The notes beneath the pieces were generated by a model that was given only the letters and a program-made list of their open reading frames with translations, searched no databases and was not told the origin of the DNA. Made by a program: the position numbers and the translations under genes. From contig CP021220.1 in assembly GCA_003999685.1 (NCBI GenBank), forward strand, positions 3,658,001-3,722,000: 64,000 nt of DNA. The letters run 5' to 3'. Shown one piece after another: positions 1,363-45,757 of the stretch. The first letter of the stretch is position 1. Each line of letters starts with the position of its first letter. The DNA comes from Taiwanofungus camphoratus (lineage: Eukaryota > Basidiomycota > Agaricomycetes > Polyporales > Taiwanofungaceae).

Positions 1363-1933
1363 TGTTACAAGGCGGTAACGGTGCGAACATACATTTTCAT
1401 TTCTCTTCACTATACCGGACTAGCGGGTCGTGTACACTTACAATTATCACCATTATTCCTGACGGGCTGACCGTCACCCGCTTAGTTATGGACCGTTACT
1501 CAGAAGGGACCACTCGGGCCTCTGACTTATGGACGCTTAGATGCTGGAACCCGTGGGAGTGAGGGCTGGCTTGCCCTAAACCCACCGTAGTACTTAAGGG
1601 ACTGGCTCACTGCGGAGCACCCCAATCTTGTCCTCCTTAGTTACACTGTGTACTTTGGTGCCGTCGTTACCATTTGTACTCTACGACTGGGCTTAGGCCC
1701 CTATACCTTTGTCTATTCAACGGGTCGCCTTAGACCACCTATATCCTTGTGACTACACTAGGACTTAGGCTGTGGCTTAGCCCGCAACTCTCTCGAGACT
1801 GTTGGGCTAGCAGTTGAAGACTTAGACGTGTACTCGTCGTCAGCCAGGCTGACTCCTCGTTTACACTTCACGCCTGACTACTCAACGACCCCCCGTCACG
1901 GTAGTCACCTACGGGCGTAGACCCCCCGTAACA
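1363..1933 (+). repeat. 3' LTR of element A (571 bp)
   Basis: It starts TGTTAC and ends GTAACA, and is preceded by the purine-rich GAGAGGGGGGTAA. Near-copies occur at 24739-25308 (minus) and 26862-27431 (plus). Confidence 0.93.
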
Positions 1934-6848: not shown

Positions 6849-7351
6849 TGTTACTGTCGGGTAGGACTAGAGACGTGTTCGTTTTTTTCTTTCCCTCTGT
6901 TTGTCACACCATGGACGCGCGGCATCCCTTCCACACCTTACTTACCCAGATTGACTGACGGGCCGACCGTCCCCGCTTACGCCATGGTAGTTATGTACTT
7001 TCGGGCCGCTGACTCCTCTCACCTTATGCGGTCTCTGGGGGGCTGCTAGTATACCTGGGGGTTGGCGGTGGCAGTATAAGAAGGGGGTCCCACTGTTGGA
7101 GGTTCCCTTAGTCGTATTCTCTTCGTTCATCCTTCCTAAGGTGTACTACGCATTAGTACCAATACACGCTAGTCTTTCTCACATCTCTTTGCACCGCAAG
7201 AAGCCCGTGAAAGACTATCGCGACTACATAGGGCTTGTAGTTGAAGACTACCGAGGATTGTGACTCGTCGTCACCGTCGTTCCTCTTCGACCCTTCGCTG
7301 CACACCGCTCCAAGCTTCTGCAGCATTATCAAGGTGAACCCCCCGGTAACA
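6849..7351 (+). repeat. 3' LTR of element B (503 bp)
   Basis: TGTTAC..GGTAACA ends, preceded by the purine tract GAGAGGAGACGGGGGTAG. By eye it is the same as both LTRs of F. A TATA-like TATAAGAAG precedes the predicted transcript start AGTCGTATTCT. Confidence 0.95.
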
Positions 7352-7469
7352 AGCGGCCCGGATATGAGTCAGAGTCCTATGCATAAGCGGGGCCGATCCG
7401 GGGCCCGTATAGTAATAGTCCATGAATAAGCAATGACCGTGGTAATGATAAGAAATAGAAATTGTTTCA
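7352..7469 (-). repeat. 3' LTR of element E, inner 118 bp
   Basis: Matches 22062-22179 of the other E LTR and ends TTGTTTCA at the inner side. It is bordered internally by a pyrimidine run (TTACCCCCTTA on the plus strand), which is the minus-strand polypurine tract. The missing outer part would lie beyond element B, off the window. Confidence 0.92.
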
Positions 7470-7540
7470 TTACCCCCTTACTAAGGTCGATCTTCGAACG
7501 ACCCTATTTGATTTTCCGTTAAATAAAATGTTCGTCAGCC

Positions 7541-7640
7541 ATGCGGGTGTTTCACCGCGTACCATGAGGGTGTTTCACCTCGAACCCTGAGAGTGTTTCA
7601 TCTCGAACTGTGAGAGTGTTTCATCTCGTACCTTGTAGGC
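7541..7640 (-). repeat. Tandem repeat in the 3' tail of E (4 units of about 25 bp)
   Basis: Four imperfect units containing GGGTGTTTCACC or GAGTGTTTCATC followed by a TCGAAC- or GCGTAC-like end. They lie between the 3' ORF and the LTR. Related GTGTTTCACCGCGA units occur once in the D elements (about 12318). Their role is unknown. Confidence 0.7.
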
Positions 7641-7815
7641 ATGTGGGCGACAGGGTAAGGACCCAACACCGCTTGCAACCTACCGCCTCAAGCAAACAGC
7701 ACCCCTACTGTTCACCATCACCGTACAGTGTAAACACTGTACCCTGCTAGCATGTGGCTCAGCGTTAATACTTCTCGCTGAGTTGCAACTAGCCGCCTCC
7801 GGTAAGCAATCCCTT

Positions 7816-9225
7816 TCATTGCTCGCCATCACCGTACAGTTCAAACTCGTAATCGTCCCATTCGTTGTCGTTCATGTAGGAGTTCGTGGGCGGGTGGTAA
7901 TTCCCGCGGCGGTAAACAGGTGGTGGAGAAGCGACAGGGGGGACGTGATAACTTGATGGGGGAGGTGGGGCGACTGGGGGAGGAGTGAATCGGCCGTCAA
8001 GGCCACGAGTAAAGGGGCCGGTACTTGCCCCGGGTTCCGTTAGGTGTTGATTTGGCGGTATACCTGGTCCAGATAAATGGTTGAGTGATGGCCCAGGTGT
8101 GTGTTGGTGAGGGTATGGCGTATCGGTCCGTGATGGACCGGCTGTCGCATTGGTGCGAGGAGCGGGCGGCCCGTTGCTTTGAGAGCGAGATGGGGTCGGG
8201 GGAAGGGGTTGTTCCCTTCTAGACATGAGGACACGGGGAGGATTGGTTGCCGACATGACCGGAATGGGTGCTTGTGTGGGGTGATGGATCGAGTCGACCA
8301 TTTCGCGGCGACGTCCTTCTCCAGGAGCGGGTAAGATGGGTGGGGCGGAGGCGTGTCGTGCTACCGTGCACTCTCGGGATAAATGTCCCGGAGCAGTGCG
8401 ATGGCATCTGGCGCAAGTGTAGTCTGGGCAGTCACGTACCCAGTGCATCATGCTGCCGCAGGCGTGGCAGCGTCCTCGTGGTCTCCAGTTGGGTTCAGGG
8501 TGCATGTAGTTCGGGAGGGAGTCGATCCGGCTAGGGACGGCTCCAATGGACTCCTGTCCGGCTGGGGTGTCGATGAAGGTTTGTAAGGGATCCACAGGTT
8601 CAGGCGGCGGGGTAGGTCCGCGCGTGACGATGTCGGGCTGGGAGCGTCGTACGAATCGGTGGTGGTCGGTTCGTCGGTGTGGGGCGATCATGTCTTGCAG
8701 GTGGCGGGCCATGGACATATCGTCCATCCTTAGTAGGGTGCAGACCACCTTGAAGTCTAACTGCCGGATTTTATTCTTCCATATGGCCAATTGTTCGGTC
8801 GCGTCATCCACCGTTCCTAAATATTGTAACCTAGCATCGATGTACTCTCCGTATGCCTCTTGTTCATCCTGGTTGTTTCGTGTGTTCGGCATGGAACAGA
8901 GCAACCGTGCGATATCCCTCGAGTGTCGAGTCATGATGTCGAGAAGGATGGGGTCTACGTCATAGATCCAACGAGGGTAGTATAAGACGTCGGCTTGTCG
9001 AGGTAGAGCGCCTTCTCCCGGTACGAGGTTGCGGAACTGGGCGGCGGTTGGAAGTCCAAAGAGTGGGCCATAGCCAGAGGATGCCGACGACGCTGACGAC
9101 GAGGATGGTACTGCAGTGGGAGAGGTGGTCGTCTGTGGTGTGTGGGTAGCCCGTCGAGTAGCTAGGAAGGCGCGGGCTCGGCCATGAGCGGCAGCTTGAG
9201 CATAGGTGTTGGATTGGCGAGGCAT
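7816..9225 (-). CDS. Element E 3' ORF, proline-rich zinc-knuckle protein (469 aa)
   Basis: Starts 46 nt after the pol frame ends. The N-terminal half is largely helical-looking and gag-like. A double zinc knuckle follows at about residues 255-290 (CHACGSMMHWVRDC, then CARCHRTAPGHLSREC). The C-terminal third is rich in Pro, Ser and Thr, with an acidic end. It corresponds to the short knuckle ORFs of the D elements. It has no signal peptide or membrane segment. Function unknown. Confidence 0.78.
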   Translation of the reverse strand: MPRQSNTYAQAAAHGRARAFLATRRATHTPQTTTSPTAVPSSSSASSASSGYGPLFGLPTAAQFRNLVPGEGALPRQADVLYYPRWIYDVDPILLDIMTRHSRDIARLLCSMPNTRNNQDEQEAYGEYIDARLQYLGTVDDATEQLAIWKNKIRQLDFKVVCTLLRMDDMSMARHLQDMIAPHRRTDHHRFVRRSQPDIVTRGPTPPPEPVDPLQTFIDTPAGQESIGAVPSRIDSLPNYMHPEPNWRPRGRCHACGSMMHWVRDCPDYTCARCHRTAPGHLSRECTVARHASAPPILPAPGEGRRREMVDSIHHPTQAPIPVMSATNPPRVLMSRREQPLPPTPSRSQSNGPPAPRTNATAGPSRTDTPYPHQHTPGPSLNHLSGPGIPPNQHLTEPGASTGPFTRGLDGRFTPPPVAPPPPSSYHVPPVASPPPVYRRGNYHPPTNSYMNDNEWDDYEFELYGDGEQ

Positions 9226-9270
9226 GTTGTGATGGGGGGGGGTAGTTCGTCTGAAGGGAGTGAACTGGTC

Positions 9271-10449
9271 TCATCTCAAGTTCTTTCTCTCCTTATATGC
9301 TCCCAGGAGTTCCTCCGCAGTACCGGCTAAGTTTGCCTCCGGTTCCCATGAGTCATCTGCCGAGGAATACCCTTTCCACCTGACCCTGTATTCGCGGCGT
9401 TTTGTCCGTAAGTTCTCCCGATGTCCGATGATGGCTTCGACTTCGTAGTTATCTTCGCCTTCGATAAGTTCCGGGGGTGGCCTCGTGTAGTTCTGGCCGT
9501 GGATCTCCGTCTCCGTATATGGCGATAGAAGGGCGGCGTGGAAGACTGGATGTACCCGCCATGTTTCCGGAAGCTTTAGCTTGTACGAGACCGGGCCTAG
9601 GACTTCCGTGATTTCGAAGGGTCCCTCTCTCTTGGGTGCCAACTTCCTAGAGGGGTATGGCAGCTTTAAGTTCCGAGAGTCGAGCCAGACCTGCTGTCCT
9701 TTGCGAAAACCTTTTCCTCGTGGTTTGATCCGTTTTGCCAGTACCGCCTGGGCTAGTTCCATCGCCGCGTGTGCCTGCTCTCTTATCTTCTGGAGGTTCT
9801 TCAGATGATAAGCTGCGCCGGGTGTGTCCGATCCCTTGTGTACGACGGGGATTCCTCGTGGTTCGAAACCCATCATGGCTTTAAACGGCGACACCTTGAT
9901 CGTCGAATGTTCCCTGGAGTTATGAGCGAATTGTGCTGCGCTGAGTAAGGAAGACCACCTATCCGGATTGTTGCTTGTGAAGCATCGAAGGTATACTTCG
10001 AGTTCCTGATTGACTCGTTCCGTTTCTCCATCCGTTTGAGGGTGGAAAGCCGTGCTCATGGCGGATTGCACCCCTGTCATGCGGCACAGCTCCTGGAATA
10101 CCTTTGATGCGAATTGCGGTCCGCGATCACTGATTACCTTGTCTGGGAGTCCAAACCACTTGTAAACCTCATTGTAAAGAAGCTCCGCCGTCCCTTGCGC
10201 GTCAATGGTTTTGTTGCATGGAATGAAAATTACCCCCTTGCTAAGGTCGTGGTCCACTACGACCAATATGGCATCGTAGCCGTTGGAAAGGGGTAGATCC
10301 GTGATGAAATCACAACAAAAGGTGCTGAATGGTGTGGCGTGAGTGGCGGCTCGGATAGGAACGAGGGCGGGGCGGTCCGGGTGGGTGTTAACCTTCATTT
10401 GTTGACATGTGCCGCATCCATGAACGTACCGGGCGACGAAGTCGGCCAT
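9271..10449 (-). CDS. Element E pol: integrase and chromodomain part
   Basis: Shows the end of the integrase zinc finger (CGTCQQMK), the catalytic core (CCDFITDLPLSNGYD.., SDRGPQFASKVFQ, TDGETERVNQELE), the GPF/Y module (KREGPFEITEVLGPVSYKLK) and a chromodomain near the C-terminus (YEVEAIIGHRENL..YRVRWKGYSSADDSW). It is one of several pol pieces of the fossil element E. Confidence 0.9.
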   Translation of the reverse strand: MADFVARYVHGCGTCQQMKVNTHPDRPALVPIRAATHATPFSTFCCDFITDLPLSNGYDAILVVVDHDLSKGVIFIPCNKTIDAQGTAELLYNEVYKWFGLPDKVISDRGPQFASKVFQELCRMTGVQSAMSTAFHPQTDGETERVNQELEVYLRCFTSNNPDRWSSLLSAAQFAHNSREHSTIKVSPFKAMMGFEPRGIPVVHKGSDTPGAAYHLKNLQKIREQAHAAMELAQAVLAKRIKPRGKGFRKGQQVWLDSRNLKLPYPSRKLAPKREGPFEITEVLGPVSYKLKLPETWRVHPVFHAALLSPYTETEIHGQNYTRPPPELIEGEDNYEVEAIIGHRENLRTKRREYRVRWKGYSSADDSWEPEANLAGTAEELLGAYKERKNLR

Positions 10450-10548
10450 TCCGGGCCACCAGTAGTCTCGTCGAAGAGATGAGAGAGTTTTCTGAATTCC
10501 AGGGTGACCGGCGGAGGGGAGATCGTGATAGTTTGAGACTGTTTGCCG

Positions 10549-11610
10549 TCATAGGTTTTCGTTTAAGGGAATGTACACCCGGTTGTCATAAAGGAGTTCG
10601 CCGTCTTGAACTGTCCAGTGATCGTTTGAGCCGTTTTGCGCATTATGCAGCCCTTCCATATACACCGGGTCGTTTACCCCTGCCTTCGCGATTGAGGTCC
10701 TTAGGCTCGTGTCGATTGCCGCTGTCCATACCTTGTCTGGCAGGACAGTTATTCCCTGGTTATCTGATGAACCGTCGTCGTGGTCGGGGCGTCGGGAGAG
10801 TGCGTCGCTTTGTACCATTTGCGTGCCGGGAACGTGAACTAATTTGTAATCGAACTCGGATAGGCGAAGAGCCCATCGTGCTTGCCTTCGGTTTAAATTC
10901 TGTGCCGTTTTCCAGTATGTCAGATTCTTGTGATCGCTGTAAATCGTGACTGGATATGGGCTACCGATGAGAAGGTGACTCCATTCGTTGAGCCCCCTCA
11001 TGACTGCCATAAGTTCCCGATCGTAAACATCGTAGTTTCGTTCTGCTGGTGTCATGCTCTGGGAGATATAACCGCAGGGATGCCAGTCTCCGTTGTCGTC
11101 TTTTTGCCTGAGGACAGCGCCGGTGGCAAACTTTGATGCATCTGTTTCCAATGCGAAGGGTTTCTCCGGGTCAGGCATCAATAGGACCGGTTGTTCCAGG
11201 AAGGCCTTCTTCAGTGCCTCGAAAGCTTCCTGTTGTTCGTCATCCCAATGCCATTTGACGTCTTTTCGCGTGAGCAAAACCAGTGGTTGGGCCAGGTGCG
11301 AGAACCGATGTATGAACCGACGGTAGAAGTTTCCAAACCCTACGAACGACCGAACCTCCCTGAGGTTCTTAGGTATCGGCCAGTCTTTAATGCCGGCTAC
11401 CTTGACTGGGTCCATGGCGAGTTGTCCGGGTCTGATGATCATGCCTAGGAATTCGACTTCTTGCACGTCGAATTTGCATTTCTCCGGTTTGAGATATAGG
11501 TCGTTGTCTCGCAGTCGCTTGATAACTCGCCGTGTACGCTTCTTATGCTCCTCGGGGTCCGTCGAGTAGATAAGGATGTCGTCCATGTAGATTGCCAACC
11601 ATCCTTCCTT
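10549..11610 (-). CDS. Element E pol: RT end and RNase H part
   Basis: Begins at the catalytic YMDDILIYS of RT, where D1 has inserted, and runs through the RT thumb (FLGMIIRPGQ) and RNase H (ALETDASKFATGAVL, SDHKNLTYWKTAQ, QSDALSRRPDH). It is continuous with the RT part on the far side of D1 (from 18682), apart from the inserted element. Confidence 0.9.
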   Translation of the reverse strand, partial: KEGWLAIYMDDILIYSTDPEEHKKRTRRVIKRLRDNDLYLKPEKCKFDVQEVEFLGMIIRPGQLAMDPVKVAGIKDWPIPKNLREVRSFVGFGNFYRRFIHRFSHLAQPLVLLTRKDVKWHWDDEQQEAFEALKKAFLEQPVLLMPDPEKPFALETDASKFATGAVLRQKDDNGDWHPCGYISQSMTPAERNYDVYDRELMAVMRGLNEWSHLLIGSPYPVTIYSDHKNLTYWKTAQNLNRRQARWALRLSEFDYKLVHVPGTQMVQSDALSRRPDHDDGSSDNQGITVLPDKVWTAAIDTSLRTSIAKAGVNDPVYMEGLHNAQNGSNDHWTVQDGELLYDNRVYIPLNENL

Positions 11611-12164
11611 TGATACAAGCTGGTATCAACGACCGGAAAGCCTCGAACGTGAGGACCTGGCTACTGAAGATAGTAGTGAGGCTTTATGGACACTGCGTAT
11701 GTCCTCCTGGGCGAAGTCGATAGAGTCGAGCGAGTACTCAGGTACGAAGCGAGAGGTCGCAAGATACGAGTATAAGATTGCTAGTGGTAACTAGCTACTT
11801 GGTAACCAGATCGAACTTAAGGTCCGACCTACAAAGTACACGGCCTTATATACGTATTCTACCCTGCGCACGGACCATGGCACGTGGTCTAAGAATCAGC
11901 ATGAGTAAGCGTAAGTAAGGCGATATGAGTCATCGGGCCGTATTAGCAATCAGTAAGCGTAAGACGGAACGTGTAAGCGGGGCCCGATATGAGTCAGAGT
12001 CCATGAGTAACCGGGGCCCGTCCGGGGCCCGTACCGTAAGCAGCGATGAGTCAAGATGCTGCGCGAAGAAGCTGGGCCTACCCGAGGCCCGCCCTAGAAG
12101 CGAAAGGTCATGGGACCGATCCGAGGTCCCACCGATAAGATATGCGATGAAAGAAATTGTATCA
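11611..12164 (-). repeat. 3' LTR of D1 (554 bp)
   Basis: TGATACA..TGTATCA on the plus strand. Next to it on the inner side is ATTACCCCCCTA, the minus-strand purine tract. It matches 18128-18681. Confidence 0.95.
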
Positions 12165-12299
12165 TTACCCCCCTACTTATGATTGAACGCCTGGTCAATC
12201 AACTAAACTCCAATGGGGACGCGTCGAGTCTCTCCGAGTTGAACTGTTGGCAACCGTCGACGAACTTGACGAACTTCCGAGGACGAACTTGAAAAAACA

Positions 12300-12490
12300 T
12301 TTCCTGGAAGTGACGAGCGGGTGTTTCACCGCGACTGATAAGGGATGACCCTTGAACCCATAGGGGATGACCCCTCCAACCGTGAGCATCCTTCCAGCTC
12401 GAACTTTCTACAGTTTTACGACATGTCGGTCGTACGTTGCAGTTTAACGACGTGCACGGTCGTTCCCTCGCAGTTTAACGACATGCAGGA
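12300..12490 (-). repeat. Repeat-rich 3' tail of D1
   Basis: Contains a GGGTGTTTCACCGCGA unit like those in E, two ATAAGGGATGACCCTT / ATAGGGGATGACCCCT imperfect palindromes, and two copies of CAGTTTAACGAC spaced about 32 bp. The second pair overlaps the end of the knuckle ORF. D2 (about 29390-29570) and D3 (about 37650-37830) carry the same arrangement. Confidence 0.65.
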
Positions 12491-12698
12491 ACCACTCTGG
12501 ATGGTACGGCGGTTCCGGGTCGTAGGCGAATGCGTAATTGACAGCGGTGCATTCGCGCGTAAGGTGCCCAGGCGACGGGCGACTACAGCGTAGACATTTG
12601 TAGTTGGGGCACGTCCTGTGCGAGTGACGAGTGCTACCGCAGAGGTAGCATGGACCGTAGCGAGTGAACGAGGATGAAGGACCGTTTGACTGAGACAT
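12444..12698 (-). CDS. D1 3' ORF, small double zinc-knuckle protein (84 aa)
   Basis: Its ATG lies 38 nt after the pol stop. Two knuckles in tandem: CYLCGSTRHSHRTC and CLRCSRPSPGHLTREC, the same pair as in the 469-residue E ORF. D2 (29517-29771) and D3 (37778-38032) keep this ORF at the same length. Function unknown. Confidence 0.7.
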   Translation of the reverse strand: MSQSNGPSSSFTRYGPCYLCGSTRHSHRTCPNYKCLRCSRPSPGHLTRECTAVNYAFAYDPEPPYHPEWFLHVVKLRGNDRARR

Positions 12699-12735
12699 GC
12701 GAGCGATGAGTGGGGTGAAAATGCGACTCCTCCTC

Positions 12736-15700
12736 TCATCGTAAGTTCTTGCGCTGCTTATATGCGTCCAGCAGCTCGTCCGCAGTACCGGCTAAGTTCT
12801 CTTCCGGTTCCCATGAGTCGTCGGCGGATGAGTAACCTTTCCACCTGACTCGATATTCTCGGCGATTCCTTCGGCGATTCTCACGATGTCCAACCAGAGC
12901 TTCGACTTCGTAGTTATCTTCGCCGCTGATAAGCTCCGGCGGTGGTTCCGTGTAGTTGGGACCATGGGTGTCCGTCTCGGTATATGGTGAAAGAAGTGCA
13001 GCGTGGAAAACGGGGTGCACTCGCCATGTCGCCGGGAGTTTCAGCTTGTAAGACACCGGTCCTAGAACGTCCGTGATTTCGAAGGGTCCCTCGCGCTTGG
13101 GAGCCAACTTCCTCGTCGGGTATGGCAGCTTTAGATTTCGTGAGTCTAGCCATACCTTTTGTCCTTTGCGGAAACCCGTTCCCTTGGGTTTCACGCGTCT
13201 TGCCAACACCGCCTGTGCTAGCTCCATTGCTGAGTGTGCGTCTTCCCGAATCTTCTGCAAGTTCCGCAGTCGATAAGCAGCGCCCGGTGTGTCCGATCCG
13301 GGGTGTACGACGGGAATCCCTCGAGGTTCATAGCCCATCATGACCTTGAAGGGTGACGCCTTAGTCGTTGAATGCTCACGCGAGTTGTGAGCGAACTGCG
13401 CTGAGCCCAGCAGCGATGACCAATTGTCCGGGTTGTTGCTCGTGAAGCATCGCAGGTAGATCTCCAGTTCCTGGTTGACTCGTTCCGTTTCTCCGTCTGT
13501 TTGAGGGTGGAACGCTGTGCTCATAGCCGACTTGACTCCGGTCATTCGGCAGAGCTCCTGGAATACCTTTGATGCGAACTGTGGTCCCCGATCGCTAATG
13601 ATCTTATCCGGAAGACCAAACCACTTGTACACCTCACGATATAATGCCTCGGCTGTTCCTGATGCGTCGATCGTTTTGTTGCATGGAATGAAAACTACCC
13701 CCTTCGTAAGGTCGTGGTCCACAACGACCAAAATTGAATCGTAGCCCTCCGAAGTCGGCAAATCCGTAATGAAATCGCAGCAGAATGTACTGAACGGAGT
13801 GGCGTGCTGCGCGGATTTGATCGGGAGTAGGGCTGGTCGGGTGGGGTGCGTGTTAACCTTCATTTGCTGGCAAGTGCCGCAACCTTTGACGTATCGCGTG
13901 ACGAAGTCAGCCATTCCAGGCCACCAGTAGTCTCGTCGAATAGACGAGAGGGTTTTCTGAATTCCAGGGTGGCCGGCGGAGGGGAGATCGTGATAATTCG
14001 AGACCGTTTGTCGTCGTAGATCCTCGTCCAAGGGGATATACACCCGATTATCGTAGAGGAGGTCTCCGTCTCGAATTGTCCAGTGGTCATTTGAGCCGTT
14101 TCGTGCATTGCGCATCCCTTCCGTATACATCGAGTCATTTACGCATGCTTCCGCGATGGAAGCCCTTAGACTCGTGTCGATTGCTGCTGCCCATACCTTG
14201 TCTGGTAAAACGGTTACATCCTGGTTGTCAGATGAACCGTCGTCGTGGTCAGGGCGTCGGGAGAGTGCGTCGCTTTGCACCATTTGCGTGCCCGGGACAT
14301 GAATTAACCTGTAATCGAATTCGGACAAGCGAAGAGCCCATCGTGCTTGTCTTCGATTCAGATTCCGTGCCGTCTTCCAGTACGTCAGGTTCTTGTGGTC
14401 GCTATAGATCGTGACTGGATACGGGCTTCCGATGAGAAGGTGACTCCATTCGTTGAGGCCTCTCATGACGCCCATGAGTTCTCGGTCATAGACGTCGTAG
14501 TTTCGTTCCGCTGGTGTCATACTCTGGGAAATATAACCACACGGATGCCAATCGCCATTGTCGTCCTTTTGCCTGAGGACGGCGCCCGTGGCGAACTTTG
14601 ATGCATCCGTTTCCAACGCGAACGGCTTCTCCGGGTCAGGCATCTGTAGAACCGGTTGTTCCAGGAAAGCTTTCTTCAGTGCTTCGAAAGCTTCCTGTTG
14701 CTCATCGTCCCAATGCCATTTGACGTCCTTTCGCGTAAGCGAGACCAGCGGCTGGGCCAGATGCGAGAAGCGGTGTATGAACCGACGGTAGAAGTTCCCA
14801 AATCCAACGAACGACCTAACTTCCCTGAGGTTCTTAGGTATCGGCCAGTCCTTGATGCCGGCTACCTTGACTGGGTCCATGGCGAGTTGTCCGGGTCTGA
14901 TGATCATGCCTAAGAATTCGACTTCTTGCACGTCGAATTTGCACTTTTCCGGTTTGAGATACAGGTCGTTATCTCGAAGCCTTTCGATAACTCGCCGTGT
15001 TCGCTTCTTATGCTCCTCGGGGTCCGTCGAGTAGATAAGGATGTCGTCCATGTAGATTGCCAACCATCCTTCCTTGAGCATGTCTGCGAAGACCGTGTTC
15101 ATCATCCGTTGGAACGTTGCCGGTGAGTTGCACATCCCGAAGAACATTACTCGGGGTTCGTAGAACGAGGGAGGTCCTTCCCCTGCTGCTGGAACACCGA
15201 AAGCCGCTTTCCATTCGTCCCCTTCCTTGATGCGAAGGTTGTTGTATCCTTGACGAAGGTCCATCTTCGTGAAGATCGTGGCGTTATTGAGGCGTTCCAG
15301 AAGCTCCGTTATGAGGGGAAGAGGGTATCTGTCTTTGATCGTTCCCTCGTTGAGTTCTCTATAGTCCTGGCAAGGTCGGTAGCCGCCGTCCTTCTTATCC
15401 ACGAAGAAGAACGGACTGGCGAGTGGCGATTTGGACGGTCGGATGTATCCCTTCTCTATATTCTCTTCGAGGAACTTGTCCAGTTCCGCTCGTTGATCCC
15501 GGTTAAGAGAATACGTTGACTGCTTGAAGTCCTTGAAATCTGGCTTGAGGTTTATCTCATGGTCAAACTCCGAATGCCGTGGAAGTCTCGCTGCTTTGGC
15601 TTTGTCGAACACCGGAAGGAGGTCGTGGAGGTACTCAGGGACGAGTTCCGTGACCGGTTTCTCCTCTTTCTGTGCGTGTTCCTTGATAGCGAGTTCCGTA

Positions 15701-16893
15701 GACGTGGTGAGTCGGCCGATGTCGTGCTTGACCTGCCAGATAAGACCGTTTTCGAGCCGACGATAGGATCCGTCGAGGGGGTACCTCTCCTCCGTAAGAG
15801 GTGCGTCTCGATATGCGGGGTGCGAATCTCGTCCATATGTCGCGATCCGATCGTCTCCTTCGATGAACGCTATGACTAGTTCATCGTCGTCGATCGTTTC
15901 CATCGCCTGATCCAGTGTGATACCGTTGACCGATTCTTCTACCAGGGGTGCGACTGGGATGTCGCGGCGTGCTGTCTGCCTAGGCATGTCTGCTGTCGGC
16001 AGAACAGGAGACATGGTGTCGATCACCTCGAAGTCTCCTTCGTCCTCTACCTCCTCAATGGTGGGCTGCCATTGTTGCTTGAGGCGTTTGTTTCGTTCGG
16101 CGAGGAAAGCCGCTACCTGTGGACAAGGGGGTGCTGACCAGTCTACCTCATAGTCTAGCACGGGATCCAGGGCTTCTTCCTGATCTCGTTCCGCTAGTTT
16201 CTTCAGCTCCAGTCGTGCTACTCGTTGCGCGATGATCCCCTTCTTCCACTCTCGAGATTCTTGTATGGTCATGCGGTGTTTCAGTTCCACACGACCCCCC
16301 TTCCAGTCGATACTGGGGTTCTCGAGTTTGAGCCATGTATGTCCGAAGATGACGTCTTCGTTCCCTATACTGGCCACGTATGCTTTGACAAACCGGGGCT
16401 CGTTCCCGATTTTGTACGATAGCAAGGCTCGTCGGTTAATGAGCGCTTGCTTGTTGGCAGTGCCGTCCACGTTGAACACCGGTATAGGGCGTGGTAGCGC
16501 CTCAGTCCGTAACTTGTGTTCTTTGACAAATCGTGGATGCACGAATATTCCCGATGCGCCACTATCGATAAAGGCGCGGGCTTCGACGGCTTTTCGTCCC
16601 ACAGTAATCGGAATGTGCAAAGCTCTGTCATTCCGGACTACAAGTACAACACGGGACAGTGAAATGGATACGGGCAGTGGTTGCGTCGGCTCACCCTGCC
16701 CCTTTAAAAATCCTCCGTTCCTAACTCCTCGAACATCGCCCTTTTCTCGTCTGCGGAGAGCGTCTTGATGTACGAGCGGAAATCCATGGGGGATCGCGCC
16801 TCGGGTTCCTTCGAGGTACTCCGTTGGCCAGTTTTGGCCGTCTTCTTCGGACACTTGCGCACCGCGTGCCCTCCCTTGTGGCAGTAGAAACAT
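12736..16893 (-). CDS. D1 pol polyprotein (PR-RT-RH-IN-chromodomain)
   Basis: The frame overlaps the end of gag (16704-16893), the arrangement expected if pol is made by frameshifting. Order: aspartic protease [14 protein letters not shown] with YMDDILIYS, RNase H (ALETDASKFATGAVL), integrase HHCC zinc finger (GHPGIQ..CGTCQQMK), core (CDFITDLPTSEGYD, SDRGPQFASK, TDGETERVNQ), GPF/Y module and chromodomain (YEVEALVGHRENR..YRVRWKGYSSADDSW). The first residues of the open frame lie in the gag overlap and are not pol-like. Confidence 0.95.
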   Translation of the reverse strand: MFLLPQGRARGAQVSEEDGQNWPTEYLEGTRGAIPHGFPLVHQDALRRREKGDVRGVRNGGFLKGQGEPTQPLPVSISLSRVVLVVRNDRALHIPITVGRKAVEARAFIDSGASGIFVHPRFVKEHKLRTEALPRPIPVFNVDGTANKQALINRRALLSYKIGNEPRFVKAYVASIGNEDVIFGHTWLKLENPSIDWKGGRVELKHRMTIQESREWKKGIIAQRVARLELKKLAERDQEEALDPVLDYEVDWSAPPCPQVAAFLAERNKRLKQQWQPTIEEVEDEGDFEVIDTMSPVLPTADMPRQTARRDIPVAPLVEESVNGITLDQAMETIDDDELVIAFIEGDDRIATYGRDSHPAYRDAPLTEERYPLDGSYRRLENGLIWQVKHDIGRLTTSTELAIKEHAQKEEKPVTELVPEYLHDLLPVFDKAKAARLPRHSEFDHEINLKPDFKDFKQSTYSLNRDQRAELDKFLEENIEKGYIRPSKSPLASPFFFVDKKDGGYRPCQDYRELNEGTIKDRYPLPLITELLERLNNATIFTKMDLRQGYNNLRIKEGDEWKAAFGVPAAGEGPPSFYEPRVMFFGMCNSPATFQRMMNTVFADMLKEGWLAIYMDDILIYSTDPEEHKKRTRRVIERLRDNDLYLKPEKCKFDVQEVEFLGMIIRPGQLAMDPVKVAGIKDWPIPKNLREVRSFVGFGNFYRRFIHRFSHLAQPLVSLTRKDVKWHWDDEQQEAFEALKKAFLEQPVLQMPDPEKPFALETDASKFATGAVLRQKDDNGDWHPCGYISQSMTPAERNYDVYDRELMGVMRGLNEWSHLLIGSPYPVTIYSDHKNLTYWKTARNLNRRQARWALRLSEFDYRLIHVPGTQMVQSDALSRRPDHDDGSSDNQDVTVLPDKVWAAAIDTSLRASIAEACVNDSMYTEGMRNARNGSNDHWTIRDGDLLYDNRVYIPLDEDLRRQTVSNYHDLPSAGHPGIQKTLSSIRRDYWWPGMADFVTRYVKGCGTCQQMKVNTHPTRPALLPIKSAQHATPFSTFCCDFITDLPTSEGYDSILVVVDHDLTKGVVFIPCNKTIDASGTAEALYREVYKWFGLPDKIISDRGPQFASKVFQELCRMTGVKSAMSTAFHPQTDGETERVNQELEIYLRCFTSNNPDNWSSLLGSAQFAHNSREHSTTKASPFKVMMGYEPRGIPVVHPGSDTPGAAYRLRNLQKIREDAHSAMELAQAVLARRVKPKGTGFRKGQKVWLDSRNLKLPYPTRKLAPKREGPFEITDVLGPVSYKLKLPATWRVHPVFHAALLSPYTETDTHGPNYTEPPPELISGEDNYEVEALVGHRENRRRNRREYRVRWKGYSSADDSWEPEENLAGTADELLDAYKQRKNLR

Positions 16894-18026
16894 AGACGAT
16901 TGTCCATGTGGTACTTTCTTTCTTTCTCACTGAGGTTGCATCCGTCCTCCCACTTCTTGGTGAATGGTGTGGGGCGCGGTGTAACGAGTGCGTCCACTTC
17001 CATGGGTTCGCCGTAGTCGACGTCGGTGGTGGCGGAGAGGGTTTGGTCGATCCCTCTGTAAACGGCGTCAAGGTGAAGAACGTCGGCGTACCATTTCTCC
17101 ATGGAGTTGGGTCGTTCCGTATTGGTGCGACCTGCGAGTGTCGTGTAGATCTGGCGGTCCAGACCTTTGATGAAGATCGCCCTCAGCGTGGGGTAATCGT
17201 TCTCGGTGCGTTGGCCTTGGAGGCTCGTGAAAGCGTCCTTTAACTTGGCCTTCTCTGCCAGGAGTCGGAACCTCTCCACGTACATCTTTGTACTGACCCT
17301 GGTCTTCTTGTTTAGTTGCTTGGCCGGCAACTCCATTAGCACCTGGTGAGCCCTCTGGACTCCTTCGTGCTCGGGGAACGCGAGTCGCAAGCTCGCCTTG
17401 AATACGTCCCAACTAGCGTAGGGAGCATGCCCTCCCGCGGCCCGTTCGTAAAACGTATCGCGCCAGATACGTGCGTCCTGCCCTCCTTTCATGAGAGCGA
17501 CCGTGTAAGCGATCTTTGCATCATCGCTTAGCCCTTGATTGTTGGTGGCAGTGAGGTAGTGCTCCACCCGCTGGAGGAAACGCTCCAGATCTTCTCCTTG
17601 CCCGGTGAACGGCTCCGGTGCAGGAATGTCGAGCTTAAGGGGTCGACTCCCCTGATGCTGTTGCGCCGAAAGGTGCGCTATGAGCGCCTCGAGCTCCGCC
17701 CTGGTCATTGTTGCGATAGTAGCCATTGTGGTAGGGGTTGTGGGTGTTATGGGTGTGGAAGGGAGTGACGGGAATGTGGGAGTGGTCGGGGTGGCTATCA
17801 ACGGTGTCGATGGTATCGACGCGGGAAAGAACTCGGCTGGGTCTCTTCCGTCTGGTGGCGGGTTACGTCTGAAATAGGAGGCTAATTTCTCCTGTGCTCG
17901 TCGATTCGAAATTGTCCCTGCCCACGCGAGTGGAGAGTTCGGGTAGATCGGATCGAGGTTCTGGTCAACGAAAGTCCAACGGAGACGATCGTACAGAAGC
18001 GGCGCGTTGTTTACTTGAGTCGGCAA
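16704..18026 (-). CDS. D1 gag
   Basis: 440 residues from the first ATG. Retrotransposon gag domain: [20 protein letters not shown], then [38 protein letters not shown] and [14 protein letters not shown]. Zinc knuckle CFYCHKGGHAVRKC near the C-terminus. The similar reading continues a little upstream of the first ATG, so the true start may be further 5' (about 18066). Confidence 0.92.
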   Translation of the reverse strand: MPTQVNNAPLLYDRLRWTFVDQNLDPIYPNSPLAWAGTISNRRAQEKLASYFRRNPPPDGRDPAEFFPASIPSTPLIATPTTPTFPSLPSTPITPTTPTTMATIATMTRAELEALIAHLSAQQHQGSRPLKLDIPAPEPFTGQGEDLERFLQRVEHYLTATNNQGLSDDAKIAYTVALMKGGQDARIWRDTFYERAAGGHAPYASWDVFKASLRLAFPEHEGVQRAHQVLMELPAKQLNKKTRVSTKMYVERFRLLAEKAKLKDAFTSLQGQRTENDYPTLRAIFIKGLDRQIYTTLAGRTNTERPNSMEKWYADVLHLDAVYRGIDQTLSATTDVDYGEPMEVDALVTPRPTPFTKKWEDGCNLSEKERKYHMDNRLCFYCHKGGHAVRKCPKKTAKTGQRSTSKEPEARSPMDFRSYIKTLSADEKRAMFEELGTEDF

Positions 18027-18114
18027 TCCCCAAGCGGTGGGGTCGACTGTCTCGATGGTAGACGTGGTGTCTAACGGTTAGCCCTACTAGATAAGACTAG
18101 GGGCAACTTAGCGT

Positions 18115-18125
18115 AAGTTCGATCT
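18115..18125 (-). promoter_or_regulatory. D1 primer-binding site, self-priming type
   Basis: On the minus strand AGATCGAACTT lies 2 nt inside the 5' LTR. It is the exact complement of AAGTTCGATCT in the LTR (18325-18335), which begins 34 nt after TATATAA (18369-18363) and so should be the 5' end of the RNA. D2 (35189-35199 with 35399-35409) and D3 (43451-43461 with 43661-43671) have the same pair. Self-priming from the RNA's own 5' end is established for Tf1 of fission yeast. Confidence 0.8.
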
Positions 18126-18127
18126 TT

Positions 18128-18681
18128 TGATACAAGCTGGTATCAACGACCGGAAAGCCTCGAACGTGAGGACCTGGCTACTGAAGATAGTAGTGAGGCT
18201 TTATGGACACTGCGTATGTCCTCCTGGGCGAAGTCGATAGAGTCGAGCGAGTACTCAGGTACGAAGCGAGAGGTCGCAAGATACGAGTATAAGATTGCTA
18301 GTGGTAACTAGCTACTTGGTAACCAGATCGAACTTAAGGTCCGACCTACAAAGTACACGGCCTTATATACGTATTCTACCCTGCGCACGGACCATGGCAC
18401 GTGGTCTAAGAATCAGCATGAGTAAGCGTAAGTAAGGCGATATGAGTCATCGGGCCGTATTAGCAATCAGTAAGCGTAAGACGGAACGTGTAAGCGGGGC
18501 CCGATATGAGTCAGAGTCCATGAGTAACCGGGGCCCGTCCGGGGCCCGTACCGTAAGCAGCGATGAGTCAAGATGCTGCGCGAAGAAGCTGGGCCTACCC
18601 GAGGCCCGCCCTAGAAGCGAAAGGTCATGGGACCGATCCGAGGTCCCACCGATAAGATATGCGATGAAAGAAATTGTATCA
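18128..18681 (-). repeat. 5' LTR of D1 (554 bp)
   Basis: Holds the promoter: TATATAA at 18363-18369 (minus strand) and the predicted start at 18335. It also has GGGGCCCG-type repeated words at 18517-18548. It matches 11611-12164. Confidence 0.95.
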
Positions 18682-20210
18682 TCCTTAAGCATGTCCGCAA
18701 AGACCGTGTTCATCATCCGTTGGAACGTCGCCGGTGAGTTGCACATCCCGAAGAACATTACCAGGGGTTCGTAGAACGAGGGAGGTCCTTCCCCAGCTGC
18801 TGGGACACCGAAAGCCGCTTTCCATTCGTCTCCTTCCCGGATCCGTATATTGTTGTACCCTTGCCTGAGATCCATCTTGGTGAAGATGGTCGCCTTGTTC
18901 AGTCGTTCCAGGAGTTCCGATATAAGGGGGAGCGGGTAGCGATCCTTGATAGTTCCCTCGTTGAGTTCTCGATAATCCTGACAAGGTCGATATCCCCCGT
19001 CTTTCTTTTCTACAAAGAAGAACGGGCTGGCCAATGGGGATTTCAACGGACGGATGTACCCTTTCTGAAGGTTTTCTTCCAGGAACTTATCCAACTCTTC
19101 TCGTTCCTCTCTGTTGAGCGAGTAAGTGGACTGCTTGAATTCCTTGAAATCTTCCTTCAGGTTGATCTCGTGGTCGTGTTCCGTGTGTTTAGGGAGTCGG
19201 GCTGCCGCTTGTTTGTCGAACACCGGAAGGAGATCGCGGAGGTACTCAGGAACGAGTTCTGTTACCGGTTTCTCCTCTTTCTTGGCGTGTTCCTTAATAG
19301 CGAGTTCTGTAGACGTAGTGAGTCGACCAATGTCATGCTTGACCTGCCAGATAAGACCGTTTTCGAGGCGACGATACGCTCCATCGAGAGGGTACTCCTT
19401 TTCCTTAAGCGAGGTGTCTCGATACGCTGGATGTGAGTCCCTTTCGTACGTGGTGATTTGGTCGTCGCCTTCGATAAACGCTATGACCAGTTCATCGTCG
19501 TCGATCGTTTCCATGGCCTGTTCGAGTGTGATACCGTTTACCGAGCTTTCTTCCGGTGTTGAGACTAGCGAGTCTCGGTGAGCCGTTTGACGAGGGGTTT
19601 CTTCCGTCGGCAAGATTGGAGACATGGTGTCTATGACGTCCCCATCTCCTTCGTCCTCAATTTCTTCAACTGAGGGTTGACGAGCTTTGATGATTTCCCT
19701 GGAAAGGGATTCCGCCGTTAACCTCTTGACTTCCAGTCGTTTAGCTCTGGTTTCCAGCAGGTTTTTCTTCCATTCCCTAGATTCCTCCAGGGTCATGCGG
19801 TGTTTGAGCTCCACTCGTCCTGTTTTCCAGTCGATGTCCGGGTTTTCCAGTTTGAGCCAGGTATGCCCGAAGATAATATCTTCCTTTCCTATGCTGGCCA
19901 CATAGGCTTTAACGAATCGGGGTTCTCCTCCTATTTTGTACGAAAGAAGGGCCCTCTTTGTGATGACAGCTTGCTTGTTAGCCGTCCCGTCCACGTTGAA
20001 CACGGGCATTGGGCGAGGTAGAGCCTCAGTGCGGATGTTGTGTTCTTTGACAAATTGGGGATGTATAAATATCCCAGAGGCGCCGCTATCGATGAAGGCG
20101 CGCGCTTCGACGTCTTTTCGTCCCACCGTAATCGGAATGTGTAAGGCCCTTTCATTCCGAACTACTAGTACAACACGGGACAGTGAAACTGAAATGGGCA
20201 GCGGTTGCAT
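18682..20210 (-). CDS. Element E pol: protease and RT part
   Basis: Shows the aspartic protease ([15 protein letters not shown]), a linker, then RT from [15 protein letters not shown] through [20 protein letters not shown] and [15 protein letters not shown], up to the point where D1 inserted. The open frame runs on into the D1 LTR by chance. It overlaps or abuts gag at about 20228. Confidence 0.92.
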
Positions 20211-20227
20211 CGACTCACCCTGCCCCT

Positions 20228-21556
20228 TTAAAAATCCTCCGTGGCCAATTCTTCCATGACCTCTCTTTTCTCGTCTGCCGACAAGCTCTTTATGTAGGAG
20301 CGATAGTCCGTGGGGCGCGAGTCTTGCGCCTTGGGTGTGTTCTTCATTCCAGCGGCCGCTTTCTTGCGACAGTCTCGTGCTGAATGTCCCCTGTTATGGC
20401 AATAGAAGCATAGGTTGTTGTTACGGTGGTATTTCCTTTCACTTTCGTTCAAGGAGCAACCATCCGTCCATTGCTTCCTACCGGGGGTGGATGAAGAGGT
20501 GCGTGCGGGTCGTGTGACGGCTGCGTCGACGTCCATGGGTTCCCCATAGTCGACCGAGGTGGTGACGTTGGAGATCTGGTCAATCCCCCTATAGATTGCA
20601 TCCAAGGATAGGACGTCTCGATACCATTTGTCCATGGTGTCTGGCCTCTCGGATGTGGCCCTTCCGGCTAAGGTGGCATAGATCTGGCGATCCAGCCCCT
20701 TAATGAATATCGCCCTGAGGGTCGGGTAATCGTTCTCGGTGCGTTGTCCGTTCGCATCGATGGTCGCGTCCTTCAACTTCGCCTTTTCGGCCAGAAGTCG
20801 GAATCTCTCCACATACATCTTGGTGGCCCTCGTTTTCTTGTTGAGTTGTTTGGCTGGCAACTCCATGAGCACCTGATGCGCTCGCTGCACTCCCTCGTGT
20901 TCAGGAAATGCCAACTTGAGAGATCCCTTGAACAGGTCCCATGTCCTGTAAGGTGCTTGACCCCCCGCTGCTCGTTCGTAGAACGTGTCGCGCCATATGC
21001 GTGCGTCCTGTCCTCCCTTCATGAGGGCGACCGTAAATGCGATCTTTGCGTCGTCGCTGAGGTTGGTGTTGTTCGTGGCGGTGAAGTAATGTTCCACCCG
21101 CTGGATGAATCGATCCAGATCTTCCCCTTGCCCAGTGAAGGGGTCCAGCGCAGGGATGTCGAGCTTGAGGGCTCGAGCCCCTTGCTGCTGGGTCTGGAGG
21201 CGAGCGATGAGTGCCTCCAGCTGCTGTTGTGTCATGTTCCCGATTGTGGCCATCGTGACTCGTCGAGGTGTGGGTGTGGATATTATAGGAGCGGATGTGG
21301 AAGAGGACGGAGTGGGTGTGGGCGTTCGAGAAGTCGAGGCGGTGAACGTGCCTTCGGGGATGGGTTCGATAGGTGTGGATTCCTGTGACCCTTCCGTGAA
21401 TAAGATCGCGATGTCTTTTCCTCCGCTGACAGGGTTTCGCTGGAAGTAAGTAGCGAGGTTGGCCTGTGCTTGTTGGATTGGTCGTCTGGATGTTGTTCTA
21501 ACCCAGGTAAGCGGTGAACTCGGATAGATCGGGTTCCGGTTCGCATCTACGAACAC
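20228..21556 (-). CDS. Element E gag
   Basis: 442 residues from the first ATG, with upstream gag-like reading as in D. Gag domain [20 protein letters not shown] and [21 protein letters not shown]; zinc knuckle [15 protein letters not shown] Ser/Thr/Pro-rich linker lies between the N-terminal and capsid-like parts. Confidence 0.92.
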
Positions 21557-21690
21557 TCGTTGTTCGATGTCATAGAGAAGTGGTTCCTCTCCTCGTGAAG
21601 GTAACCCCCAGTAATCAGGATCGACAGTCCTGAGGTAAGACGTGGTAATGGATGTATGCCCGCTAGATGGTACTAGGGGCGGCTTAGCGT

Positions 21691-21701
21691 AAGTCTGATC
21701 T
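21691..21701 (-). promoter_or_regulatory. Element E primer-binding site, self-priming type
   Basis: Minus-strand AGATCAGACTT, 2 nt inside the LTR. It is the exact complement of AAGTCTGATCT in the LTR (21881-21891), which starts 35 nt after TATATATAG (from 21926). Compared with D, the middle bases of both partners have changed together. Confidence 0.8.
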
Positions 21702-21703
21702 TT

Positions 21704-22179
21704 TGATACAAATTGGTATCTCGGATCCTATATGTTGCCTCACACGTGAGGGCCTGACCACGATAGAAGGTGGCGAGGTCTTATGGTCGATATAGACCGA
21801 GTGTCGTGAAGTCCGTAGACTCGAGCGAGTATCACTCAGATGTGAGCGAGAGGATACAAGACACGAATATAGTGGTAACAAGATCAGACTTAAGGTCCGA
21901 CCTAAACTAAGTACATGCTATATATACAAGTACGTATCCTGAGCACGGACCAAGAACTACTCTAGGGCAGGAGGTCCGAAATGTGGTACGACTATAGATA
22001 AATGCAGAGTGGTACGATCCGGGCGTATTAGCAATACGTGTGAGTAATGAGGAATGTGGTAAGCGGCCCGGATATGAGTCAGAGTCCTATGCGTAAGCGG
22101 GGCCGATCCGGGGCCCGTATAGTAATAGTCCATGAATAAGCAATGACCGTGGTAATGATAAGAAATAGAAATTGTTTCA
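21704..22179 (-). repeat. 5' LTR of element E (476 bp)
   Basis: TGATACA..TTGTTTCA on the plus strand. It shares its inner layout and several words (TAAGGTCCGACCTA, GGGGCCCG) with the D LTRs but is clearly diverged from them. It is followed directly by the interrupted LTR of C. Confidence 0.93.
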
Positions 22180-22864
22180 CTATCCGGTGGGCCTCCGCCT
22201 TAGTTATACCCTTAGGCTCACGTTGCGTCATCCCTACGTCCTACGAATAACCCTACGACTCCCCCATAGCCTTCATTACAGGCTATAGTACATCTCTCTA
22301 CGCCCTCGAACTCTCCGACTCACACCTCGACGTCATCAGACACTTCAGAGCTTCCAGCAACCTCGTTCCCTCATTCCTATTCCAAGTATTAGCTCTCCGA
22401 ACCATCCGACCTCTCCTACAAGTCTCCCACGCTAGCCAAACCTCGCCCACCTCGCTCTAACAGACCTCTAAACCTTACGCCCTTTAGCTAACTCTAGCTA
22501 AAAGGACTTCGCAGCAGTCTCGTACCCTCTGCCGCTTAGTAGAAATTATAGTCCATTGGCTTATTGCCCCCTAACTCTATACAGCCTACGAAGTCAGCTC
22601 GCGCGATTTAGCTAAAACTTCGAAGGACTTCGCAGAATCTCGAAGGACTTCGCGTACTTCGGAGGGCCTCGCAAGGCCTTAGGGATAGTATAGCACTTAG
22701 GAACAAGATCCTGTTGTGCAGGACCCTTGACCCCTTACTCCCCTACTTACAAAAACAAGACATACAGGTTGTAGCTCCTACCCTCACACCCTCACAGTTA
22801 TCACACTACCCCCAGCCACGTTGCGGAGCACTCCCTAGGTACCAGGGTCCCCTAGGTCGTATCA
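22180..22864 (+). repeat. 5' LTR of C, inner 685 bp
   Basis: Matches 55819-56522 and ends GGTCGTATCA. Its first kilobase is separated off by the insertion of E. Rich in CTTCG/CGAAG words such as GAAGGACTTCGC. Confidence 0.93.
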
Positions 22865-24738: not shown

Positions 24739-25308
24739 TGTTACGGGGGGTCTACGCCCGTAGGTGACTACCGTGACGGGGGGTCGTTGAGTAGTCAGGC
24801 GTGAAGTGTAAACGAGGAGTCAGCCTGGCTGACGACGAGTACACGTCTAAGTCTTCAACCGCTAGCCCAATGGTCTCGAGAGAGTTGCGGGCTAAGTCAC
24901 AGCCTAAGTCCTAGTGTAGTCACAGGGATATAGATGGTCTAAGGCGACCCGTTGAATAGACGAAGGTATAGGGGCCTAAGCCCAGTCGTAAAGTACAAAT
25001 GGTAACGACGGCACCAAAGTACACAGTGTAACTAAGGAGGACAAGATTGGGGTGCTCCGCAGTGAGCCAACCCCTTAAGTACTATGGTGGGTTTAGGGCA
25101 AGCCAGCCCTCACTCCCACGGGTACCAGCACCTAAGCGTCCATAAGTCAGAGGCCCAAGTGGTCCCTTCTGAGGAACAGTCCATAACTAAGCGGGTGACG
25201 GTCAGCCCGTCAGGAATAATGGTGATAATTGTAAGTGTACACGACCCGCTAGTCCGGTATAGTGAAGAGAAATAAAATGTAAGTTCGCACCATTACCGCC
25301 TTGTAACA
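24739..25308 (-). repeat. Solo LTR of the A family in C (570 bp)
   Basis: TGTTAC..GTAACA in reverse orientation, flanked by the direct repeat AAGGC (24734-24738 and 25309-25313). Exact duplication without internal sequence marks a full insertion later reduced by LTR-LTR recombination. Confidence 0.95.
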
Positions 25309-26861: not shown

Positions 26862-27431
26862 TGTTACAAGGCGATAATGGTGCGAACATACATTTTCATT
26901 TCTCTTCACTATACCGGACTAGCGGGTCGTGTACACTTACAATTATCACCATTATTCCTGACGGGCTGACCGTCACCCGCTTAGTTATGGACTGTTCCTC
27001 AGAAGGGACCACTTGGGCCTCTGACTTATGGACGCTTAGGTGCTGGTACCCGTGGGAGTGAGGGCTGGCTTGCCCTAAACCCACCATAGTACTTAAGGGG
27101 TTGGCTCACTGCGGAGCACCCCAATCTTGTCCTCCTTAGTTACACTGTGTACTTTGGTGCCGTCGTTACCATTTGTACTTTACGACTGGGCTTAGGCCCC
27201 TATACCTTCGTCTATTCAACGGGTCGCCTTAGACCATCTATATCCCTGTGACTACACTAGGACTTAGGCTGTGACTTAGCCTGCAACTCTCTCGAGACCG
27301 TTGGGCTAGCGGTTGAAGACTTAGACGTGTACTCGTTGTCAGCAAGGCTGACTCCTCGTTTACACTTCACGCCTGACTACTCAACGACCCCCGTCACGGT
27401 AGTCACCTACGGGCGTAGACCCCCCGTAACA
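26862..27431 (+). repeat. Second solo LTR of the A family in C (570 bp)
   Basis: Same family as 24739-25308 but in the opposite orientation, flanked by ATTCC at 26857-26861 and 27432-27436. The two solo LTRs face each other in C about 1.5 kb apart, and each has its own target duplication, so they are separate insertions. Confidence 0.95.
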
Positions 27432-35139: not shown

Positions 35140-35201
35140 GGTGTCTAACGGTTAGCCCTACTAGATAAGACTAGGGGCGACTTAGCGTAAGTTCGATCTT
35201 T

Positions 35202-35756
35202 TGATACAAGCTGGTATCAACGACCGGAAAGCCTCGAACGTGAGGACCTGGCTACTGAAGATAGTAGTGAGGCTTTATGGACACTGCGTATGTCCTCCTG
35301 GGCGAAGTCGATAGAGTCGAGCGAGTACTCAGGTACGAAGCGAGAGGTCGCAAGATACAAGCATAAGATTGCTAGTGATAACTAGCTACTTGGTAACCAG
35401 ATCGAACTTAAGGTCCGACCTACAAAGTACACGGCCTTATATACGTATTCTACCCTGCGCACGGACCATGGCACGTGGTCTAAGAATCAGCATGAGTAAG
35501 CGTAAGTAAGGCGATATGAGTCATCGGGCCGTATTAGCAATCAGTAAGCGTAAGACGGAACGTGTAAGCGGGGCCCGATATGAGTCAGAGTCCATGAGTA
35601 ACCGGGGCCCGTCCGGGGCCCGTACCGTAAGCAGCGATGAGTCAAGATGCTGCGTGAAGAAGCTGGGCCTACCCGAGGCCCGTCCTAGAAGCGAAAGGGT
35701 CATGGGACCGATCCGAGGTCCCACCGATAAGATATGCGATGAAAGAAATTGTATCA
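35202..35756 (-). repeat. 5' LTR of D2 (555 bp)
   Basis: Carries the TATA box and predicted start AAGTTCGATCT (35399-35409, minus strand), which pairs with the primer site at 35189-35199. Confidence 0.95.
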
Positions 35757-43362: not shown

Positions 43363-43463
43363 TCCCCAAGCGGTGGGGTCGACTGTCTCGATGGTAGACG
43401 TGATGTCTAATGGTTAGCCCTACTAGATAAGACTAGGGGCGACTTAGCGTAAGTTCGATCTTT

Positions 43464-44017
43464 TGATACAAACTGGTATCAACGACCGGAAAGCCTCGAA
43501 CGTGAGGACCTGGCTACGAGAGATGGTAGTGAGGCTTTATGGACACTGCGTATGTCCTCCTGGGCGAAGTCGATAGAGTCGAGCGAGTACTCAAGTACGA
43601 AGCGAGAGGTCGCAAGATACGAGTATAAGATTGCTAGTGGTAACTAGCTACTTGGTAACCAGATCGAACTTAAGGTCCGACCTACAACGTACAGGGCCTT
43701 ATATACGTATTCTACCCTGCGCACGGACCATGGCACGTGGTCTAGGAATCAGCATGAGTAAGCGTAAGTAAGGCGATATGAGTCATCGGGCCGTATTAGC
43801 AATCAGTAAGCGTAAGACGGAATGTGTAAGCGGGGCCCGATATGAGTCAGAGTCCATGAGTAACCGGGGCCCGTCCGGGGCCCGTACCGTAAGCAGCGAT
43901 GAGTCAAGATGCTGCGCGAAGAGGCTGGGCCTACCCGAGGCCTGTCCTAGAAGCGAAAGGTCATGGGACCGATCCGAGGTTCGACCGATAAGATATGCGA
44001 TGAAAGAAATTGTATCA
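43464..44017 (-). repeat. 5' LTR of D3 (554 bp)
   Basis: Promoter LTR with the predicted transcript start at 43671 (minus strand) pairing with the primer site at 43451-43461. Confidence 0.95.
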
Positions 44018-45746: not shown

Positions 45747-45757
45747 AGAATACGACT
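45747..45757 (+). promoter_or_regulatory. F primer-binding site, self-priming type
   Basis: AGAATACGACT, 2 nt inside the LTR, is the exact 11-nt complement of AGTCGTATTCT at 45503-45513. The spacing is the same as in D and E although the sequences are unrelated, which argues for function. Confidence 0.82.

Follow-up and report, generated by a model that had tools for sequence, protein, structure and literature searches.

Which molecule primes reverse transcription of the LTR retrotransposons at this locus? The question arises because a short sequence just behind their 5' LTRs is complementary to a word within the LTR itself. The preliminary description of the window (the whole stretch of 64,000 nucleotides that was analysed) had read this as the mechanism of Tf1, in which the 5' end of the element's own RNA folds back and serves as primer instead of a tRNA. 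The genome searched for further copies comprises 33.2 Mb in 15 contigs and contains the window. We consider it very likely that five families, D, E, F, H and I, are Ty3/gypsy retrotransposons of the Tf1/sushi-like type that prime minus-strand DNA with the first 11 nucleotides of their own RNA, a reading based on sequence comparison.

The elements of the window

The window contains three D elements (D1, D2 and D3), an E element, one full (F2) and one truncated (F1) member of the F family, and LTRs of the further family H. The D and E elements lie on the minus strand and F2 on the plus strand. Insertions are nested at 7351-22185, where D1 (11611-18681) interrupts E, and the 3' LTR of E appears to contain F1. 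The 5' LTRs extend over 18128-18681 in D1 (minus strand, TGATACAA...TTGTATCA), 21704-22179 in E (minus strand) and 45242-45744 in F2 (plus strand). Clean target duplications of 5 bp flank D1 (TCCTT, 18682-18686 and 11606-11610), D2 (CCTTA), D3 (GTACC) and F2 (TTACT, 45237-45241 and 52965-52969). A 0.7-kb repeat of unknown kind is also present at 22180-22864 and 55819-56522, with 97% identity between the two copies.

The pol open reading frame of D1 (12736-16893, minus strand) encodes a protease-like domain, reverse transcriptase, RNase H, integrase, an SH3_Tf2-1 domain and a chromodomain. The last five are encoded by D1, D2 and F1, and all three have the Ty3/gypsy order of pol with the chromodomain after the integrase. 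Coding regions were looked at in D1, D2 and F only, and H and I were placed by the geometry of their LTRs; an open reading frame with a chromodomain (55-1119) lies immediately before an H LTR. E is closely related to D, and long stretches of their coding regions are 74-83% identical. In a search with the reverse transcriptase region of D1, the best identity among the 120 matches listed of 6181 was to a protein of the polypore Rhodonia placenta (73% over 99% of the query), by which the host is probably a wood-decay basidiomycete; the listed matches were mostly chromodomain elements, some of them named Tf2 in the source and some from vertebrates.

Predicted primer words and binding sites

In D1, a TATA box (TATATAAG, 18362-18369, minus strand) starts 34 nt before the word AAGTTCGATCT (18325-18335, minus strand), the 11 nt with which the RNA is predicted to begin. 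The end of the LTR is followed by a linker of two bases, AA (18126-18127, minus strand), and by the predicted primer binding site (PBS) AGATCGAACTT (18115-18125, minus strand). The same word and PBS occur on the minus strand in D2 (35399-35409 and 35189-35199) and in D3 (43661-43671 and 43451-43461). The E element has the word AAGTCTGATCT (21881-21891) and the PBS AGATCAGACTT (21691-21701), both on the minus strand, and F2 has AGTCGTATTCT (45503-45513) and AGAATACGACT (45747-45757), both on the plus strand. The remaining matches to the words in the window (11808, 28881, 37147, 7110 and 52723) belong to other LTR copies.

The geometry given in the preliminary description was thus found again in D1, D2, D3, E and F2: an 11-nt PBS lies 2 nt past the 5' LTR and is the exact reverse complement of the LTR word. 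The target duplications set the LTR ends of D1, D2, D3 and F2, and therefore the spacing of 2 nt is correct. The proposed distance of 34-35 nt between TATA box and word was also recovered, with the box beginning at -34 in D1 and at -35 in E and F2. In these three elements the word directly follows CCTT, giving a YYA start, and given this context and spacing its first A is therefore a good initiator. It had further been claimed that D and E changed both partners together and that F has an unrelated word. Both points hold: D and E differ by a paired two-base difference between word and PBS, and the F word is unrelated to those of D and E.

Among 2990 internal 11-mer offsets in each element, an exact complement in the element's own LTR was found solely at offsets 2-3 in D1, 1-3 in E and 2 in F2, while 0.34-0.39 exact 11-mer complements would be expected by chance over all offsets together. 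The additional offsets in D1 and E reflect complementary runs of 12-13 nt. When a PBS was compared with the LTR of the wrong family, 6-9 of 11 positions matched.

The genome adds the families H and I, which have different words and the same geometry as D, E and F. All 14 H copies that were fetched by LTR similarity have the PBS AGGACAAGATT, starting 2 nt after the LTR, and the exactly complementary LTR word AATCTTGTCCT; counted by eye, the distance from the start of a TATA-like TACTTAAG to the word is 33 nt. Within the window, the H word lies at 27123-27133 (plus strand), 1624-1634 (plus strand) and 25038-25048 (minus strand), and none of the H LTR copies in the window is followed by an H PBS. 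When H ends were searched with a pattern that fixed the last bases, the common PBS was found at 32 of 34 places and AGAACAAGATT at the other 2. An H primer predicted from the alignment with F, AGTTACACTGT, proved to be wrong, as a pattern search yielded 0 sites. At F-type LTR ends, 48 places were found, of which 32 have the common F PBS, 5 a related one and 11 none. Two of the 5 related sites, AGGATAAAGCT (L139) and AGAATAAAGCT (L140), represent family I. Both copies contain the LTR word AGCTTTATCCT, which fits L139 exactly and L140 with one mismatch, and TATATATG starts 34 nt before the word. In these 2 copies, the PBS was found first and the implied LTR word was sought afterwards.

Copia elements served as a partial control. 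Five were tried (L109-L118) and four gave an LTR pair. In the LTR pieces fetched from these four, 334-349 nt long and incomplete at the 5' edge of the stretch retrieved, no word of at least 8 nt complementary to the PBS region was found. The LTR is followed in the four elements by GGTTATGAGCCCTG, which we take to resemble the complement of an initiator-tRNA half, and judging from this sequence they probably use a half-tRNA primer. Pattern searches with guessed flanks for an initiator-tRNA gene matching GGTTATGAGCCCTG gave 0 sites.

Paired changes among genomic copies

If the PBS and the LTR word are functionally coupled, they should agree within each copy. In a set of 99 distinct pairs from copies fetched without sight of their PBS (PBS-blind copies), which are mostly top similarity matches and probably biased to well-kept copies, 96 pairs are exact: 29/31 in D, 35/35 in E, 20/21 in F and 12/12 in H, where the script missed 2 of the 14 copies. 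The 3 misses are single CpG transitions. The preliminary description had named many unpaired copies as the finding that would speak against Tf1-type self-priming, and with 3 of 99 the reading survives this test. In 20 further copies, fetched after the common PBSs had been listed, all 20 words match, a result that tests the LTR side alone.

Copies with an odd PBS were also fetched. Of these 19 copies, 17 were counted; L129 has no recognisable LTR word and L141 looked like an LTR without a PBS. Five of the 17 are exact and 12 are unpaired. Taken together, 15 copies are mismatched, 12 of them at CpG only, while L140, L142 and L145 include a non-CpG mismatch. Among 100 listed D/E-type PBS sites (of 129), 12 differ from the two common forms: 1 is a clean paired change, 2 are matched by CpG changes on both sides, 8 are unpaired and 1 is without an LTR word.

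Two copies carry clean paired changes. L010, an E element, has the PBS AGGTCAGACTT and the word AAGTCTGACCT in both LTRs, so that a T to C change at word position 9 is accompanied by A to G at the partner site of the PBS. L143, an H element, has the PBS AGAACAAGATT and the word AATCTTGTTCT in both LTRs, where C has become T at word position 9 and the PBS has A in place of G. Neither pair involves CpG. Another H copy, L142, also has the changed H PBS, yet the common word in both LTRs, as would be seen if the change were one-sided or if PBS and word had been renewed from different RNA ends. The unpaired LTR change of L031 is missing from its 3' LTR (L103), and it therefore arose after insertion. 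L120, L123 and L146 match via CpG changes on both sides and were not counted as evidence; the 3' LTR of L120 keeps the common word, and for L123 and L146 the 3' LTR word was not found in the stretches fetched.

It may be added that non-CpG changes in word or PBS fall on word position 9 (PBS position 3) in 4 of the 5 copies that have them (L010, L140, L142 and L143, spanning the families E, H and I); the fifth is L145.

Changes were also tallied on R/U5 trees of the distinct PBS-blind copies (29 in D, 35 in E), in which non-CpG R/U5 columns have a mean of 0.27 changes in D and 0.49 in E. The 22 non-CpG sites of word and PBS in E have 2 changes, namely the L010 pair, versus about 11 expected, and the 18 such sites in D have 0 versus about 5. 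With all copies, some of which were selected by their PBS, the tallies are 0 versus about 22 in D and 2 versus about 13 in E; the constraint in D is thus weaker with PBS-blind copies, at modestly below expectation. All these figures make the constraint look too strong, because badly changed words fail the filter of the script. The modest deficit in D would fit the view that PBS and word are relics, alike by recent descent and not by function. Many copies are indeed recent, and 14 of 20 loci have an LTR pair of 460-550 nt with 96.7-100% identity. However, recent descent does not account for different words obeying the same rule in E, F, H and I, or for the changes on both sides in L010 and L143, and we regard it as extremely improbable.

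A host tRNA or tRNA fragment might be the primer and the complementarity to the LTR incidental. The D word contains TTCGATC, as we assume T-arms of tRNAs may do, and in this it resembles a T-arm, but the words of E, F, H and I do not. No family has a PBS that fits a tRNA 3' end: such a site would open with TGG, complementary to CCA, and all five PBSs start differently. A tRNA primer would also leave unexplained why the PBS tracks the word of its own LTR through five word pairs and two paired changes within families. Priming by a tRNA is therefore very unlikely in our view, even though tRNAs are the primers of those plant chromoviruses that stand nearest to Tf1/sushi (PMC10085805).

The pairing of RNA start and PBS was also predicted by folding RNAs that start at the word, one sequence for each of the five families. 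The leader folding suggested beforehand yielded this pairing: the minimum-energy fold includes the 11-bp duplex of primer and PBS in four families, and in F the duplex comes within 0.1 kcal/mol of that fold. The predicted mean pair probability of the duplex is 0.946-0.973 in all five families. It corresponds to the central duplex of the 'pretzel' of Tf1, which is thus predicted in 5/5 families; the two flanking duplexes did not clearly stand out from shuffled sequences (z -2.0 to +0.3).

Such a duplex might serve packaging, dimer control, translation or circularisation, while something else, left unspecified, acts as primer. Conservation of sequence cannot tell which step needs the duplex. However, the paired site occupies the position required of a PBS, 2 nt behind the LTR, and its length of 11 nt is that described for Tf1 (PMC7175516). 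A role in another step alone is unlikely, if somewhat less so than a tRNA primer.

Tf1-type self-priming is thus supported by the paired changes in L010 and L143, by the families H and I, which obey the rule, and by the duplex predicted in 5/5 families. Transcription would start at the A that opens the word, as TATA box and YYA context suggest, and the 5' end of the RNA would fold back on the PBS. The RNase H of the element would then cut after nucleotide 11, and from the 11-mer reverse transcriptase would synthesise DNA across the 2-nt linker and on into U5. Later, copying of the primer into the plus strand would keep PBS and word in register. That the mechanism operates in this fungus, as had been claimed, agrees with the evolutionary pattern, and it is from evolution only that we infer its operation.

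Known systems and the variable junction base

Self-priming was first proven in fission yeast. In Tf1, the first 11 bases of the RNA are complementary to the PBS (PMC7175516), and the elements described here resemble Tf1 and Tf2 of S. pombe in this complementarity, with an RNA start that we infer from the LTR. Tf1 and Tf2 also have a chromodomain (PMC10085805), like D1, D2 and F1, which in addition encode the SH3_Tf2-1 domain. They differ in other features: Tf1 and Tf2 have one open reading frame (PMC10085805), while D1 has two and D2 has one of 1776 amino acids, and F2 encodes a CCHC knuckle, which the Gags of fission yeast elements lack (PMC10085805). Furthermore, for Tf1 cleavage and an RNA with three duplexes have been reported, in contrast to the sequences and predicted folds on which the present families are based.

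In the basidiomycete Cryptococcus neoformans, self-priming of the Tf1/sushi type has already been proposed for Tcn1 (PMC7175516). In view of the precedents Tf1 and Tcn1, self-priming and its presence in basidiomycetes are existing proposals. For Tcn2-5, a possibly novel priming has been proposed (PMC7175516), whereas the four families sampled here in several copies, D, E, F and H, all self-pair; the likeness to Tcn1 is drawn from its description. Tj1 of S. japonicus has an LTR sequence complementary to its PBS and was proposed to self-prime from its sequence (PMC4600332). It is active in S. pombe (PMC4600332), while the elements treated here are known as genomic sequences. Other fission yeast elements have also been read as self-priming (PMC4600332, PMC10085805). 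In plants, self-priming is predicted in most elements of the Tcn1 clade and in TAR (PMC6317226); TAR is a Ty1/copia element of a plant host (PMC6317226), in contrast to the four Copia elements checked here, whose fetched LTR pieces show no such word. Our results add at least four multi-copy families of a single fungus, probably a basidiomycete, to the elements credited with self-priming of the Tf1 type, and the support consists of paired changes at the level of copies and not of one alignment per element. In the self-priming literature searched, we found no copy-level paired changes for basidiomycetes or Agaricomycetes, which is weak evidence of their absence.

The bases directly behind the PBS (+1 to +5; 18110-18114 in D1, minus strand) form a junction that is variable among D and E copies. 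In PBS-blind copies, the +1 base has 6 changes in D and 8 in E, while R/U5 columns have at most 4 changes in D (197 columns) and at most 5 in E (177 columns). With all copies, +1 has 8 changes in D and 10 in E, and all R/U5 columns are lower; +3 (D and E) and +5 (E) equal +1 in this count, which was made on unaligned bases for +2 to +5 and there includes insertions. All four bases occur at +1 in the full sets of D and E, and only A, T and C in PBS-blind D copies. The column is not CpG in D or E. In F, +1 is C in 21/21 PBS-blind copies, and in H it is C in 13/14; because of these nearly invariant bases, the hot spot is not general. Further copies of F, H and I came from patterns that require C at +1 and are uninformative at this position.

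Tentatively, the hot spot in D and E may be a run-off scar at the place where the RNA 5' end would lie, with F and H speaking against a general rule. A fuller reading would be that plus-strand strong-stop DNA runs off the capped 5' end of the self-primer, that reverse transcriptase adds untemplated or cap-copied bases, and that these bases enter the new copy at second-strand transfer; we find this chain of events conceivable and rather doubtful. Titles and abstract beginnings on nontemplated addition in Tf1 or on plus-strand transfer described no such hot spot. If true, the genome would preserve at +1 in D and E a trace of where the RNA began and of the copying of the entire primer. Should the hot spot reflect run-off, primer ends could be mapped from genome sequence alone, and the workings of second-strand transfer in self-primed elements could be made out as well.

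At the opposite end of the elements, a G-rich tract before the 3' LTR (GGGGGGTAATG or GGGGGTAGTG) is common to D, E, F and H, despite their differing primer words.
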